Source of the DNA: Desulfuromonas sp. SDB
Lineage (GTDB): Bacteria; SDB-A
Direction of reading: 5' to 3'
Length of the DNA stretch: 5,233 nucleotides
Assembly (NCBI GenBank): GCA_001412365.1
Contig: LKUE01000257.1
Span: forward strand, 1 to 5,233
A model generated the notes under the pieces. It had not been told where the DNA came from, did not search any database, and saw only the letters and a list, made by a program, of their open reading frames with translations. How positions within the stretch are numbered: the first letter of the stretch is position 1; each line of letters opens with the position of its first letter. Below, one piece after another: positions 2 through 5,233 of the stretch. The translations under genes were made by a program, and so were the position numbers.

Positions 2-1213
2 GACAGATATATTGAAAAAAAACATGTTTATAATTTTGTATTACACTTAGTTATGTTTATTTTGGCTCTTTTAACTAAAGAATCAGCAGTTGTTCTTCCA
101 TTTATTTTTTTTCTGTTTATTATTTTAATCAAAAAGATGCCGGTTAAGAGTAAAAATAATTTAATCATCTGTTTTATATGGTTCTTATGTTTATCCTTTT
201 GGTTTTTACTCAGAAATATTTTTGTAAATTATTATTCAGGAGGTTTTTATTCAATTGTTGATCTAGGGAGAGGACTATTAAGCTATATTGGAAAATTAGT
301 TTTTCCATTTGATCTTTCTCCCTATCCAATTCCTGAAAATGTAAATATTTATTATGGAATTGCAGTTTTAATTATCCTGGTGCTGCTAGCACTGATGCAA
401 AGGATAAAAGATAGAAAGAATTTTTTGTTTGGTCTTATGTTATTTCTATTATTTTCCCTAGTCACTTTTAAGAAAGGATTTACCACTCCCAGTTTTATTG
501 AAACCAGGATTTATCCTGCTTTATTTGGTTTTTTAATCATCACTGCTGAAATTGATTATGGTAAAGTACTGTACAAATATAGAAAAATTTTTATAATCCT
601 GATTACTGCTTTTTTTTCAGTAATCACATTAACATATACTCCAGTATATAAAAATCCGTTTACTCACCTCAAATTTGCAGTTTTAGCATCTCCAGAATCC
701 TGGGTAATCAGACATAACTTGGGGATGGAATATTTAAAATCAGATATGATTGATTCGTCATTTTATCAATTTAATAGAGCTTGGCAAATAAATCCTGAAA
801 ACTCTAATATCAATGCTGCATTAGGAGTAGTTTATGATAGAATGAATTTAACTGATAGTGCTTTGAGGTATTATCAAAGATCTATAAAGTATAATCCTAA
901 AAATCTAACTGCGGTGAATAATATTGGTTTAATTTATTTTGAAAGTAAAAATTATGACAGCAGCTTGAAGTACTTTTCACAAGGGATTTCTATTGATTCT
1001 TCAGATGCTCAAATTCATTTTAATTTAGCTAATACCTATTTCAAATTAGGGGATTATGAAAGATCTAAATATTTTTATCTTACCTCAATAAGACTGGATA
1101 AACAAAACATACATGCTCACCGTTATCTTTACTATACTTATCTGGAACTTGGATATGAAGACTACAATAGCATTTGGAAATATTTTTTAGGCAAGATATT
1201 ATTTTTATTATAA
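2..1213 (+). CDS. PMT/TMTC-like membrane protein with C-terminal TPRs (5'-truncated by the window edge)
   Basis: The reading frame is open from base 2 with no stop, so the ATG at 53 is an internal methionine; 403 codons plus TAA are visible. Numbering from that methionine, hydrophobic segments lie at about 1-28, 37-55, 101-117, 124-139, 152-166 and 178-196. The TKESAVVLPF stretch (8-17) and the ETRIYPALFGF stretch (150-160) resemble the conserved Lys-Glu loop and the E-R-x-Y-x-P-S region of TMTC/PMT-type glycosyltransferase-like proteins. From about 215 to the end the protein becomes soluble, with four to five tetratricopeptide repeats (about 215-248, 249-282, 283-316, 317-350 and a partial one), showing the usual A-L-x-Y-Y/F and N-P spacing. 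The family is thought to act in sugar transfer to proteins at the membrane. The catalytic N-terminal part lies outside the window, so neither activity nor substrate can be judged. The gene is AT-rich, like the 2201-3721 gene and unlike the DUF401 gene. Confidence 0.8.
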   Translation, partial: DRYIEKKHVYNFVLHLVMFILALLTKESAVVLPFIFFLFIILIKKMPVKSKNNLIICFIWFLCLSFWFLLRNIFVNYYSGGFYSIVDLGRGLLSYIGKLVFPFDLSPYPIPENVNIYYGIAVLIILVLLALMQRIKDRKNFLFGLMLFLLFSLVTFKKGFTTPSFIETRIYPALFGFLIITAEIDYGKVLYKYRKIFIILITAFFSVITLTYTPVYKNPFTHLKFAVLASPESWVIRHNLGMEYLKSDMIDSSFYQFNRAWQINPENSNINAALGVVYDRMNLTDSALRYYQRSIKYNPKNLTAVNNIGLIYFESKNYDSSLKYFSQGISIDSSDAQIHFNLANTYFKLGDYERSKYFYLTSIRLDKQNIHAHRYLYYTYLELGYEDYNSIWKYFLGKILFLL

Positions 1214-1366: not shown

Positions 1367-1404
1367 AATATTAATGTAATGATGAAAAAAATGGAGTGAT
1401 TGAA

Positions 1405-1815
1405 ATGAAAAAAATAAAAGGTTTTTCTCTTCTGGAGTTGATGGTAGTAGTGGTAATAATCGGTATACTGGCAGCTATTGCCATTCCCAACTTTATCCGT
1501 TTAAAAGACCGGGCAAAGGAATCAGAAGTAAAAGCTAATGCCCATACTTCCCATTTAGCTGCTGAAGAATATGCAACAGGTGCTGACGGATATTATATCC
1601 CCCAAGCTGATTTTATAAATCTCCCCATGTTAAGTAATTTAAAAAATCCTTTTGTCAGTGGAGGAGTTGCAGTTTCAGCTGGCGCTCCATCTATCGCTGG
1701 ATGTGTAGGGTACAACCATGGTGGCTATAGTGTCGATCCCTATACTATCGTCGCAGCGGGTAAAGAGGGCTCGACTGATACAATATTAGTTCTATGCCCC
1801 TCCGGTTCATTTTGA
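1405..1815 (+). CDS. Type IV prepilin (PilA/pseudopilin-like), 136 aa
   Basis: Encodes a small secreted filament subunit with a class III signal. The leader MKKIKG is followed by FSLLELMVVVVIIGILAAIAIP. Prepilin peptidase would cut between Gly6 and Phe7, and the conserved Glu5 of the mature protein is present at residue 11. The hydrophobic helix covers about 7-29, followed by an amphipathic stretch (NFIRLKDRAKESEVKAN) and a short globular domain. Cys100 and Cys131 could form a C-terminal disulphide loop as in many pilins. The ATG at 1405 was chosen over the in-frame GTG at 1396 because the Shine-Dalgarno GGAG (1393-1396) overlaps that GTG and lies 8 nt before the ATG; the leader is also of normal length from this ATG. 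The length fits a short PilA-like or minor pilin. No assembly genes (pilB, pilC, pilQ) are nearby, so it is an orphan, and whether it is a major or minor subunit cannot be told. A sigma-54 promoter lies just upstream. No terminator-like hairpin is seen after its stop. Confidence 0.92.
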   Translation: MKKIKGFSLLELMVVVVIIGILAAIAIPNFIRLKDRAKESEVKANAHTSHLAAEEYATGADGYYIPQADFINLPMLSNLKNPFVSGGVAVSAGAPSIAGCVGYNHGGYSVDPYTIVAAGKEGSTDTILVLCPSGSF

Positions 1816-1862
1816 TTGTGTTTGTAATTTTAAGTTAGATATATTGGTCACTTTTCTAATCC

Positions 1863-2028
1863 AACTTGCCAATTATCGAAATTCCTGATAATTTCAGCAT
1901 ATGTCATTGGTTAAGGTTGCAATAATATTCCTGGTTATATTCTTGCTGTCCACCCGGTTGAAGAAGTGGATTGCAATGGCTATATTTACCGGAGCAATTC
2001 TCAGCGGGATATTATTTGCCTTCTCTCC
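1863..2028 (+). repeat. Direct repeat, upstream copy (partner at 3776-3941)
   Basis: Aligns without gaps to 3776-3941 at an offset of 1913 bases. Bases 1884-2028 match at 144 of 145 positions; the single difference is A at 1976 versus G at 3889. In the lead-in 1863-1883, 16 of 21 positions match and all five differences lie within 1872-1883. Homology stops abruptly after 2028. The repeat consists of the upstream bases and first 42 to 43 codons of the DUF401 gene. Confidence 0.95.
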
Positions 2029-2044
2029 CTGGAAAATTAATTAA
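1901..2044 (+). pseudogene. Truncated 5' fragment of the DUF401 membrane-protein gene
   Basis: This open frame of 47 codons starts with the same ATG context as the intact gene at 3814. Its first 43 residues match that protein except for Met26 in place of Val26. After Phe-Ser-Pro (41-43) it runs into unrelated AT-rich sequence, adds Trp-Lys-Ile-Asn and stops at TAA (2042-2044). It would encode only the first two hydrophobic segments of a protein with about ten, so a transporter function is not possible. It has no Shine-Dalgarno. It is best read as a remnant of a duplication rather than a working small gene, although a two-helix peptide could still be made. Confidence 0.88.
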
Positions 2045-2143
2045 ATATTCATCTAATTTATCAAAATAGAATAATAAAAAAATCCTTAAAATTACATATT
2101 ATATAATGAGTTATATTAGTTTATATATATACAAACAAAGTTC

Positions 2144-2173
2144 TTGACATTATCATAAAATATAAGTAATCAT
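2144..2173 (+). promoter_or_regulatory. Candidate sigma-70-type promoter for the secreted-protein gene
   Basis: A perfect TTGACA box at 2144-2149 is followed, after 18 bases, by AATCAT (2168-2173; four of six matches to TATAAT). AT-rich DNA upstream (2090-2140) could act as an UP-like element. The -35 box is convincing and the -10 is weak, and housekeeping promoters of Bacteroidota-like bacteria differ from this pattern. Confidence 0.4.
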
Positions 2174-2188
2174 ATTTTCATTATTAAC

Positions 2189-2195
2189 AAGGAGG
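2189..2195 (+). promoter_or_regulatory. Strong Shine-Dalgarno that sets a TTG start
   Basis: AAGGAGG ends five bases before the TTG at 2201, which makes TTG the likely start codon. The in-frame GTG at 2207 has 11 bases of spacing and would shorten the signal peptide by two residues, so it is a weaker choice. Confidence 0.75.
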
Positions 2196-2200
2196 AATAA

Positions 2201-3721
2201 TTGCGAGTGTTACTAACATTGCTAATTAGTATTTCTTTTACTGTAGCTTTATCTGCTAATGTGGCTTTTATCACACAATGGGATACTTGTTATACCAGGT
2301 TAGGAGCTGAATCATTTTATAGATGTGAAGATATAACAAAAACAGATAATGGATATGTATTAGTTGGACATGTCAATAATCATTTGCTAAATAATGATAC
2401 GACTAGTGACATTTATTTATTAGAATTTTATTCAGATGGCTCATTTCGAAATCATAAATTGTTTTATACTCAAATTACTATTGATTCTATAACTTACAGG
2501 TTTACGGACGATACTGCATTTAGTATATGCAGGTCATTTGATGGAGGATATGTAGTTGTAGGTCAAGGTCATGACCCTCAATCACCAGTAACTAATAAAT
2601 CTTATTGGGATGATATTTTAATTTTAAAACTAAATAGTAATTTGAATAAAACAAATTCTTATTATTATAATCCTAATGATAGGAATGATTGTGCTTATCA
2701 TGTATCAACAACTTCTGATTCATGCTACATTGTTTGTGGCTTTTATGGTTTTGATAACTATCCAGTTCGTAACAGTCCTCTAGTGATAAAGTATTCTGAT
2801 GATTTTAATATTTTATGGGGTGAATCATATCTTTGTGGTAAGCATTCGGGGCTATTCTACAAAGTTAAAGAAATTAGTGATGGTTCATATATCGCAGTTG
2901 GATGTATTCAATATAATTATTGGCAGAACAATAATGGATACATTTTTAATATAAGTTCGGATTCTGGAATAATTATTGATTCAGTTCATTGTTCATCTAC
3001 AAAAATTTTAGATTTTGTAGAATGTGGAGAAAATCTTTTTTTTATCGGATATAAATTAAATACTCCCAATCAATTTTTGTGTAGCTTCTTTGGCAAAACA
3101 GATATAAGTTTAGACAGTGCAATTTATGTCACAAATAATTATTCTTTTATATCGGGAGTGCCAACTTCAATAAATCTTGGTCCAGAAGATAATACTTTTT
3201 TGGTAACTAGTTCAAGCGGATATATATACTATATTGATACTTTAGGCATCAAATTAGATTCATTCAAACCAATTGATATTCCTAGTACAAGTGCTTGTGA
3301 TTTATCAGCAATTTATCAGGAAATAAATAATTTCTTCACGGCAGGGAATGTATGGATAGGGGGGTACAGCTATTATGCTGCAGCTAGAACTTTTACTTTA
3401 AAGTTCCAAACCCCGCCCAGTGATGATGAATATGATCTAGATAGATCAAAGTTAATTAGTTCATTAGATTTCTATAGTCGGGAAAATGTATACTATTTTG
3501 ATATAAAAACATCAAAAAGTTGCAATATCAATGTTAATATTTACAATGTTGCAGGACAGAGAGTCAGAAATATTATTAATAATCAAAATATAACTGGAGA
3601 GTATACAGTTTCATGGGATGGTCGAGATGATAATGGAATAAAAGTGAATGCTGGAATTTACTTTTTTGAAGTTAAAACTGCTGAAGATCGTGAAATAAGA
3701 AGTTTTTCATATATTAAATAA
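2201..3721 (+). CDS. Secreted beta-propeller-like protein with C-terminal FlgD-like / T9SS type A sorting domain
   Basis: The 506-aa product starts with a Sec signal peptide: Arg2, a hydrophobic core at 3-17, and probable cleavage after Ala-Leu-Ser-Ala at about 19. Residues 38-400 hold loosely repeated units of the type D-G-G/S-Y-[VI]-x-[VA]-G followed by an acidic D-[IL]-x-[IL]-L-x-[FK] strand. Examples are near 49-80, 106-146, 168-199 and 222-250; later units are degenerate. This is the pattern of secreted propeller proteins that carry T9SS tails. Residues about 425-506 form an Ig-like tail: VNIYNVAGQRVRNI, then G-E-Y-x-V-S-W-D-G-R-D-D-N-G and V-N-A-G-I-Y-F-F-E-V, ending in SYIK. In this family the tail directs export through the type IX system or anchoring at the cell surface. 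Thirteen cysteines (30, 42, 110, 164, 175, 179, 212, 235, 264, 275, 294, 366, 441) are many for such a protein. The gene stands alone between a promoter-like site and a terminator, inside the repeat-bracketed segment. Its ligand or substrate is unknown. Confidence 0.82.
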   Translation: MRVLLTLLISISFTVALSANVAFITQWDTCYTRLGAESFYRCEDITKTDNGYVLVGHVNNHLLNNDTTSDIYLLEFYSDGSFRNHKLFYTQITIDSITYRFTDDTAFSICRSFDGGYVVVGQGHDPQSPVTNKSYWDDILILKLNSNLNKTNSYYYNPNDRNDCAYHVSTTSDSCYIVCGFYGFDNYPVRNSPLVIKYSDDFNILWGESYLCGKHSGLFYKVKEISDGSYIAVGCIQYNYWQNNNGYIFNISSDSGIIIDSVHCSSTKILDFVECGENLFFIGYKLNTPNQFLCSFFGKTDISLDSAIYVTNNYSFISGVPTSINLGPEDNTFLVTSSSGYIYYIDTLGIKLDSFKPIDIPSTSACDLSAIYQEINNFFTAGNVWIGGYSYYAAARTFTLKFQTPPSDDEYDLDRSKLISSLDFYSRENVYYFDIKTSKSCNINVNIYNVAGQRVRNIINNQNITGEYTVSWDGRDDNGIKVNAGIYFFEVKTAEDREIRSFSYIK

Positions 3722-3741
3722 GCTATAAATTATTTATTTGT

Positions 3742-3773
3742 GCAGGATAGTATATAAACTATCCTGCTTTTTT
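3742..3773 (+). terminator. Intrinsic (rho-independent) terminator
   Basis: GCAGGATAGT (3742-3751) and ACTATCCTGC (3758-3767) form a perfect 10-bp stem with a 6-base loop, followed by six T (3768-3773). It lies 20 bases after the stop of the secreted-protein gene. It should insulate the DUF401 gene downstream from its transcription. Confidence 0.93.
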
Positions 3774-3775
3774 CT

Positions 3776-3941
3776 AACTTGCCATTTCTCCAAAACCCTG
3801 ATAATTTCAGCATATGTCATTGGTTAAGGTTGCAATAATATTCCTGGTTATATTCTTGCTGTCCACCCGGTTGAAGAAGTGGATTGCAGTGGCTATATTT
3901 ACCGGAGCAATTCTCAGCGGGATATTATTTGCCTTCTCTCC
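3776..3941 (+). repeat. Direct repeat, downstream copy (partner at 1863-2028)
   Basis: This is the copy that continues into the intact DUF401 gene. It starts three bases after the T-tract of the terminator and ends within codon 43 of the gene. From 3797 to 3941 it differs from the upstream copy only at 3889. The upstream stretch 3785-3796 carries all other differences. Confidence 0.95.
3779..3805 (+). promoter_or_regulatory. Candidate promoter of the DUF401 gene, possibly giving a leaderless mRNA
   Basis: TTGCCA (3779-3784, five of six matches to TTGACA) and GATAAT (3800-3805, five of six to TATAAT) are 15 bases apart, a slightly short spacer. The -10 box ends eight bases before the ATG at 3814, so transcription would begin at or within a base or two of the start codon. 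The terminator just upstream means that the gene needs a promoter in this 40-base gap or depends on readthrough. Both boxes are identical in the upstream copy (1866-1871 and 1887-1892). Confidence 0.45.
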
Positions 3942-5073: not shown

Positions 5074-5081
5074 GATAACCA

Positions 5082-5172
5082 TTAACCACAGAGAACACAG
5101 AGAATAAAAAGATACTGCTTCGCAGGTACCACCCAGCACCCCGGAATTTTTTACCACAGATGAACACAGTGA
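5082..5172. repeat. Imperfect ACCACAGA-GAACACAG repeats
   Basis: TTAACCACAGAGAACACAGAGA (5082-5103) recurs as TTACCACAGATGAACACAGTGA (5151-5172) with a few changes. Such ACCACAGA/AACACAGAG strings occur as dispersed intergenic repeats in several bacterial genomes. Here they lie just after the DUF401 stop. No coding potential is evident in 5074-5233. Confidence 0.7.
5092..5125. repeat. 34-bp unit with a small hairpin, first copy
   Basis: AGAACACAGAGAATA (5092-5106), a short variable stretch, then ATACTGCTTCGCAG (5112-5125). The same order occurs at 5196-5228. CTGC-TTC-GCAG (5115-5125) can fold into a 4-bp stem with a 3-base loop. There is no U-tract, so it is not a typical terminator. Confidence 0.75.
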
Positions 5173-5195
5173 CCCAACTTACCACCCCTGTTCCC

Positions 5196-5228
5196 AGAAC
5201 ACAGAGAATAATGGATACTGCTTCGCAG
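5196..5228. repeat. 33-bp unit with a small hairpin, second copy
   Basis: AGAACACAGAGAATA (5196-5210), then ATGG in place of the AAAAG of the first copy, then ATACTGCTTCGCAG (5215-5228). It differs from the first copy only in this middle stretch and is one base shorter. The array may continue beyond the window edge. Confidence 0.75.
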
Positions 5229-5233
5229 ATGCC

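Follow-up and report, generated by a model that had tools for sequence, protein, structure and literature searches.

How did a single gene come to lie between a prepilin gene and a DUF401 gene, bracketed on both sides by the beginning of the very gene that follows it? This is the question raised by the window analysed here, a stretch of 5,233 nucleotides that makes up the whole of contig C257 in a 3.1-Mb draft genome (G000) of 433 contigs. Its features are collected in Table 1, in which T, P, S and D denote genes; the contig starts within T.

Table 1. Coordinates of genes, repeat copies and putative signals in the window.
Feature	Position	Strand	Basis or remark
T, 3' part of a membrane TPR/glycosyltransferase-like gene	2..1213	+	TPR matches
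P, prepilin-like gene	1396..1815	+	N_methyl and GFxxxE prepilin models
Upstream lead-in, diverged copy	1860..1883	+	6/24 bases differ from 3773-3796
Upstream repeat copy, last bases ahead of the DUF401 start and 43 codons (stub ORF 1901-2044)	1884..2028	+	
Joint of DUF401 stub and S-upstream sequence	2028..2029	no strand	G+C 41% to 16%
Promoter-like site of S (TTGACA, 18 nt, AATCAT)	2144..2173	+	consensus match only
S, probable secreted/surface protein, 506 aa, hydrophobic N-terminus, FlgD-Ig / secretion-tail-like C-terminus	2201..3721	+	profile matches
Putative terminator hairpin of S, then T6	3742..3767	+	-16.3 kcal/mol, z -5.6
Downstream lead-in, diverged copy	3773..3796	+	comparison with 1860-1883
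Downstream repeat copy, start of the working DUF401 gene	3797..3941	+	
D, complete DUF401 / TIGR00529-like membrane protein, 419 aa	3814..5073	+	PF04165 E 7.6e-49

The repeat and the gene it encloses

A repeat search and self-BLAST delimit a direct repeat of 169 nt (1860-2028 and 3773-3941) with 96% identity and a spacing of 1913. The initial annotation of this DNA had described two copies that begin at 1884 and are identical but for one base, and this was borne out for the core (1884-2028 and 3797-3941), where 144 of 145 bases agree and A1976/G3889 is the sole mismatch, whereas a weaker homology begins already near 1860. The match between the two cores is far beyond chance. The short lead-in ahead of them is considerably more diverged (6/24 against 1/145; Fisher p = 3e-5), and at the other end the homology stops abruptly at 2028/3941. 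There, at the joint between stub and S-upstream sequence, G+C falls sharply (Table 1) and the joined sequences show no overlap. The longest identical run between the copies amounts to 92 bases.

As had been noticed before, only the downstream copy becomes a full gene. In the upstream copy, the DUF401 start codon at 1901 is followed by 43 codons of the gene and soon afterwards by a stop, which yields a peptide of 47 residues; this copy is a dead stub of 47 codons. The product of the complete gene D is 55-57% identical to that of its three relatives (G001, G002 and G003). At residue 26, the working DUF401 protein and that of G001 have Val, those of G002 and G003 have Leu, and the stub has Met. 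Since Val26 is common to the working copy and G001, it is the stub that appears to be the copy free to change. Furthermore, a crossover anywhere within the repeat was computed to restore a full DUF401 ORF, with either Val or Met at position 26, and to release 1913 bp, in agreement with the earlier suggestion that the unit could be lost precisely.

Between the copies lies one self-contained gene, as previously annotated, with a promoter-like site and a terminator of its own; S is the only gene there. The consensus promoter matches near 2144 barely exceed what is expected from shuffled sequence. Among profiles relevant to a possible cargo of type IX secretion, the C-terminus of S scores above the cut-off for TIGR04183 (25.8 bits, cut-off 23) and FlgD_ig (43, cut-off 27), and below it for Por_Secre_tail (14.7, cut-off 27). 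Judging from this C-terminal domain and the location of the gene, S is probably a surface or secreted protein, which perhaps works with the adjoining pilin-type genes. A structure prediction from the single sequence was unusable (mean pLDDT 37). The AT-richness of S had to be discarded as a sign of foreign origin, with the native gene T being just as AT-rich (27.5% against 29.6%). Neither ORFs nor profile searches revealed a recombinase, transposase, integrase or any other mobility gene in the S unit, a repeat search of the window found no inverted repeats at the ends of the unit, and no relatives of S were found in viral contigs or plasmid collections. Two further matches within the genome were rejected: one at G000:C249, considered as a second copy of S, is short (50 bases), AT-rich and 83% identical, and that of the S leader in G000:C172 is a chance match. 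For P, which is 65% identical to its G001 counterpart, the internal ATG at 1405 (MKKIKGFSLLELM) is likelier to be the start than 1396.

Gene order in genomes of the same family

Our comparison covers four genomes of the phylum, and the three relatives are of the same family and of one sister genus. In all three, DUF401 comes immediately after a prepilin gene, at a distance of 39-41 bp. P and D are 41 bp apart in G001, where the order is S-relative, T, P, D, an M23-type peptidase and a holB-type gene (the last two named from their translations). In G002 and G003 the contig stops just upstream of D, and its last bases are the tail of a prepilin gene, 39 bp from D. The initial annotation had proposed looking for related genomes that lack the unit, and these three provide them; its idea that S entered between the prepilin and DUF401 genes, leaving the target intact, is supported accordingly by the adjacency of P and D. 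Going by gene order, the empty site in the relatives is real, and, as a comparison between genera, it offers no base-by-base empty site. Because the three relatives all belong to one other genus, the polarity does not come from them alone; it is the dead stub that marks the lineage of the window as the one that changed. The near identity of the repeat copies means that the duplication, or the last homogenisation of the repeat, was recent, and the insertion or rearrangement at C257 is thus probably a fairly recent one.

The same genomes also provide relatives of S, in a different place. While the space between prepilin and DUF401 is empty in the three relatives, the slot upstream of T, behind a second prepilin gene (P'), holds an S gene in G001 and a weakly similar gene, S2, in G003. 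The closest relative of S is a gene fragment in G001 just upstream of T (G001:C82:78-605), with 41% identity over S residues 333-505, that is, the last ~175 (E 3e-36); it is the sole clear relative, the common FlgD-Ig domain aside. S2 in G003 encodes 502 aa and is preceded by P'. The orthologues of T itself (G001:C82:676-2349 and G003:C15:56682-58340) have 46-47% identity. With the nearest relative of S located one slot upstream in a sister genus, the case is not simply one of a foreign unit entering, and S is at least as likely to have moved locally or to have been exchanged between strains.

Whether the upstream slot is flanked in a parallel manner was considered as well. In G001, where two contigs are involved, the sequences behind the P' stop and behind the S stop are identical for 62 bases; the two sides of the S2 slot in G003 agree at about 35 of 38 bases. 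As a parallel to the repeat studied here these flanks are suggestive only, as they partly reflect a terminator-promoter layout that is common in that genus; exact copies of the hairpin GGGGAGAT..ATCTCCCC are confined to two sites in G003 and three in G001. A relationship between the S-upstream sequence (2029-2200) and the P'-S leader of the sister genus was rejected, its alignment scores falling within those of shuffles. The 5' end of C82 in G001 was likewise discarded as a truncating joint of S, since 87 bases are exactly common to it and the end of C97 in what is an assembly fork, for which reason nothing is claimed on the N-terminus of the G001 relative. The fork (G001:C82:1-87 and G001:C97:5229-5315, exactly 87 bases) adjoins two different secreted-protein genes.

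Two other features of such clusters were observed. In the conserved (77%) leader that separates P' from the secreted gene, a TTGACA/TATAAT promoter-like site is closely followed by a (CT)n tract. This tract, with 16 copies at L090:8285-8316 (G001:C35) and 12 at L088:9943-9966 (G003:C15), is a candidate for a length-variable on/off switch of the secreted gene. Moreover, at L088:6028-11610 (G003) and L089:6864-9883 (G002) a pilin-like gene with a large secreted gene downstream (FG-GAP or FlgD_ig) is found beside groEL, and this recurrent pairing in G003 and G002 suggests units of a pilin and a surface-protein partner.

Possible origins of the duplication

So what kind of event would leave such an arrangement? 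The best explanation in our view, which we put forward with some reserve, is additive recombination, through which S with its promoter-like site and terminator would have been added between the prepilin and DUF401 genes. The incoming DNA would already have included a DUF401 gene start behind S; its source may have been a relative, by uptake, or this cluster on a sister chromosome, by copying. On the right side, an ordinary homologous crossover would have taken place within DUF401, while on the left side the DNA would have been joined without homology at 2028/2029, within codon 43 of the resident gene. The start of the resident gene would have been left behind as the dead stub, with the incoming start completing a working gene. 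What we infer here is the donor order, with S beside DUF401, as well as the nature of both junctions and the direction in which the event ran. A sharp right edge together with a diverged lead-in is what one illegitimate joint would give, the other edge lying where donor and recipient already differed, and the sharp, overlap-free joint fits the non-homologous side of homology-facilitated illegitimate recombination. As part of the same tentative reading, the 145 bp would represent the scar of an additive insertion and neither an att site nor the target duplication of a transposon; for the latter the repeat had already been considered too long, and transposase and terminal inverted repeats are missing as well.

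Additive recombination is favoured by the empty site, the sharp edge, the diverged lead-in, the Val26 of the working copy, the lack of mobility genes, the uniqueness of the unit in the genome, the want of S relatives in the viral and plasmid collections and the S relative in the neighbouring slot. Against it, a lead-in of 25% divergence beside a core of 0.7% needs a donor whose lead-in had been altered earlier, and the sequence upstream of S has no detectable relation to the S slot of the sister genus. A donor of the required kind, in which S immediately precedes DUF401 and the stub is lacking, was not found among the four genomes of the phylum. Furthermore, a tandem duplication with deletion, or a later gene conversion of the core, would give nearly the same scar. 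The former is the main biological rival to additive recombination, although we regard it as clearly less probable: a duplication of S-T-P-D whose breakpoints lay ahead of S and at DUF401 codon 43 would have given S-T-P-d-S-T-P-D, where d is the stub, and loss of the second T-P would have resulted in T-P-d-S-D. The position of S just before T in G001, with a weakly similar gene in that slot in G003, is in line with such a duplication, and the joint of d and S looks exactly as a duplication joint would appear. However, two or three events are needed, more than for additive recombination, the sequence upstream of S does not match the sister slot, and no copy or remnant of S is visible upstream of T, where the contig begins within T and the N-terminus of T is missing from the assembly.

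An artefact, in which two strains or repeat copies were misjoined by the assembler, we consider improbable. The draft is fragmented into its 433 contigs, and others among them have unmerged end overlaps, which an end-overlap analysis found to be of varied sizes; one other contig (G000:C200) moreover has an inverted terminal repeat. Yet the longest identical run is shorter than an ordinary read, the joint at 2028/2029 offers an assembler no overlap, and the base at 1976/3889 and the lead-in phase the two copies. The earlier argument against misassembly, made from the base difference and the lead-in, therefore holds, though it leaves an artefact unlikely and not impossible. Little credence is also given to a circle carrying S and the start of DUF401 that integrated by a single homologous crossover, or to a mixture of integrated and excised forms in the population. 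Its geometry fits, as one crossover leads to P-d-S-D and its reversal to a 1913-bp circle and an intact gene, and for plant genes with repeats on either side, circle integration has been suggested (PMC2869330). On the other hand, the unit lacks genes for replication or recombination, neither a further copy nor a circle contig nor a match to a plasmid was found, and the origin of the circle would still need explaining. Least probable is a site-specific mobile element that integrates at 5' ends of genes and supplies a replacement start, a possibility raised in the initial annotation. While an incoming start would have restored a working gene with the stub on the far side, the unit lacks a recombinase, its flank is unique in the genome, the flank of the slot in the sister genus is unrelated and shows no shared att core, and the ~0.67 Mb of this genome that were scanned contain no further such unit; as a repeatable habit of an element, the proposal finds no support here.

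The contig G000:C200 (L185) carries a 72-base inverted repeat at both of its ends, which may be a real element boundary or an assembly chimera.

Known parallels and recurrence in the genome

Insertion with long target duplication of Helicobacter pylori restriction-modification genes is reportedly described by Nobusato et al. 2000 and Furuta et al. 2010. In that species such insertions frequently involve restriction-modification genes and have duplications of ~100 bp (PMC3874152; PMC1643837; PMC4978471), with the long target duplications of restriction-modification insertions being of variable length (PMC3874152). Like these, the C257 locus has a gene unit without mobility genes, a direct target repeat in the order of ~100 bp (here a 145-bp core within 169 bp) and an empty site in relatives (G001, G002 and G003). 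Unlike the Helicobacter cases, its payload is a secreted-protein gene, with FlgD_ig and secretion-tail matches only, and the comparison is between genera instead of strains, in an uncultured WOR-3-type lineage. Given that a restriction-modification payload is typical of the described cases and not defining, the C257 locus is a known type of scar, that of insertion with long target duplication, with a different payload.

Other systems are similar in part. Whole genes are exchanged between conserved neighbours in minimal mobile elements (PMC3082526), and our locus may be compared with those of Neisseria (Saunders and Snyder 2002), where different genes fill the interval separating two conserved ones and could be swapped through these flanks. 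Their model, however, has homology on both sides and leaves no duplication, and here only G001 and G003 hint at alternative genes in one slot. Transformation can make duplications by alternative pairing (PMC3784515). Such transformation-made duplications in pneumococcus and homology-facilitated illegitimate recombination in Acinetobacter and Pseudomonas stutzeri are laboratory events, unlike the C257 locus; the latter process, with one homologous and one illegitimate junction, would yield a scar of this kind. SXT integrates at the 5' end of prfC and supplies a new start. At C257, too, an incoming 5' end would have restored the target gene, with the displaced stub on the far side, but the C257 unit has no integrase and no short core site, and its repeat is much longer. 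From a transposon or insertion sequence it differs by having one gene only, no transposase, no terminal inverted repeats and a duplication that is far too long.

Within the limits of one locus in a draft genome, this is a clear and probably recent case in which one gene has acquired a new position in the absence of any mobility gene, with the junction still readable, and it widens the pattern of long target duplication, known from restriction-modification genes, to a gene for a surface protein in an uncultured lineage. Precise loss is also predicted from the repeat, so that empty and occupied forms may coexist in metagenomes. A more far-reaching reading, which we think doubtful, is that in this lineage S-type genes beside pilin-type genes shuttle between the slots of one cluster, duplicating the local flank each time in a precisely reversible manner. 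The flanks would then be the 145 bp around S, the 62 bp in G001 and the about 38 bp in G003. If true, this shuttling would constitute a transposase-free means of varying the cell surface.

The scan for self-repeats covered 42 stretches, which amount to 456 kb with the window counted in and were almost all selected for their S-type genes, and 41 further ones (218 kb readable), in total about 0.67 Mb or ~1/5 of the genome. The initial annotation had suggested a search for other units bracketed in this way, and none was found in this fraction: no further direct repeats reached both 100 bp and 90% identity, and the others with a length of 100 bp or more have 69-85% identity and resemble ordinary paralogues. 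Matches between contigs likewise gave no repeat flank elsewhere in the genome, the unit being unique. With about a fifth of the genome scanned, the insertion of S looks like a one-off event. A dispersed intergenic repeat family of a different kind, 'accacagagaacacagagaataa ... gatactgcttcgcag', occurs at the end of the window (5081-5233) and at about a dozen places in G000, among them C186, C423, C388, C386, C22 and C332, and also at several contig ends, including a 41-base overlap with contig C87.
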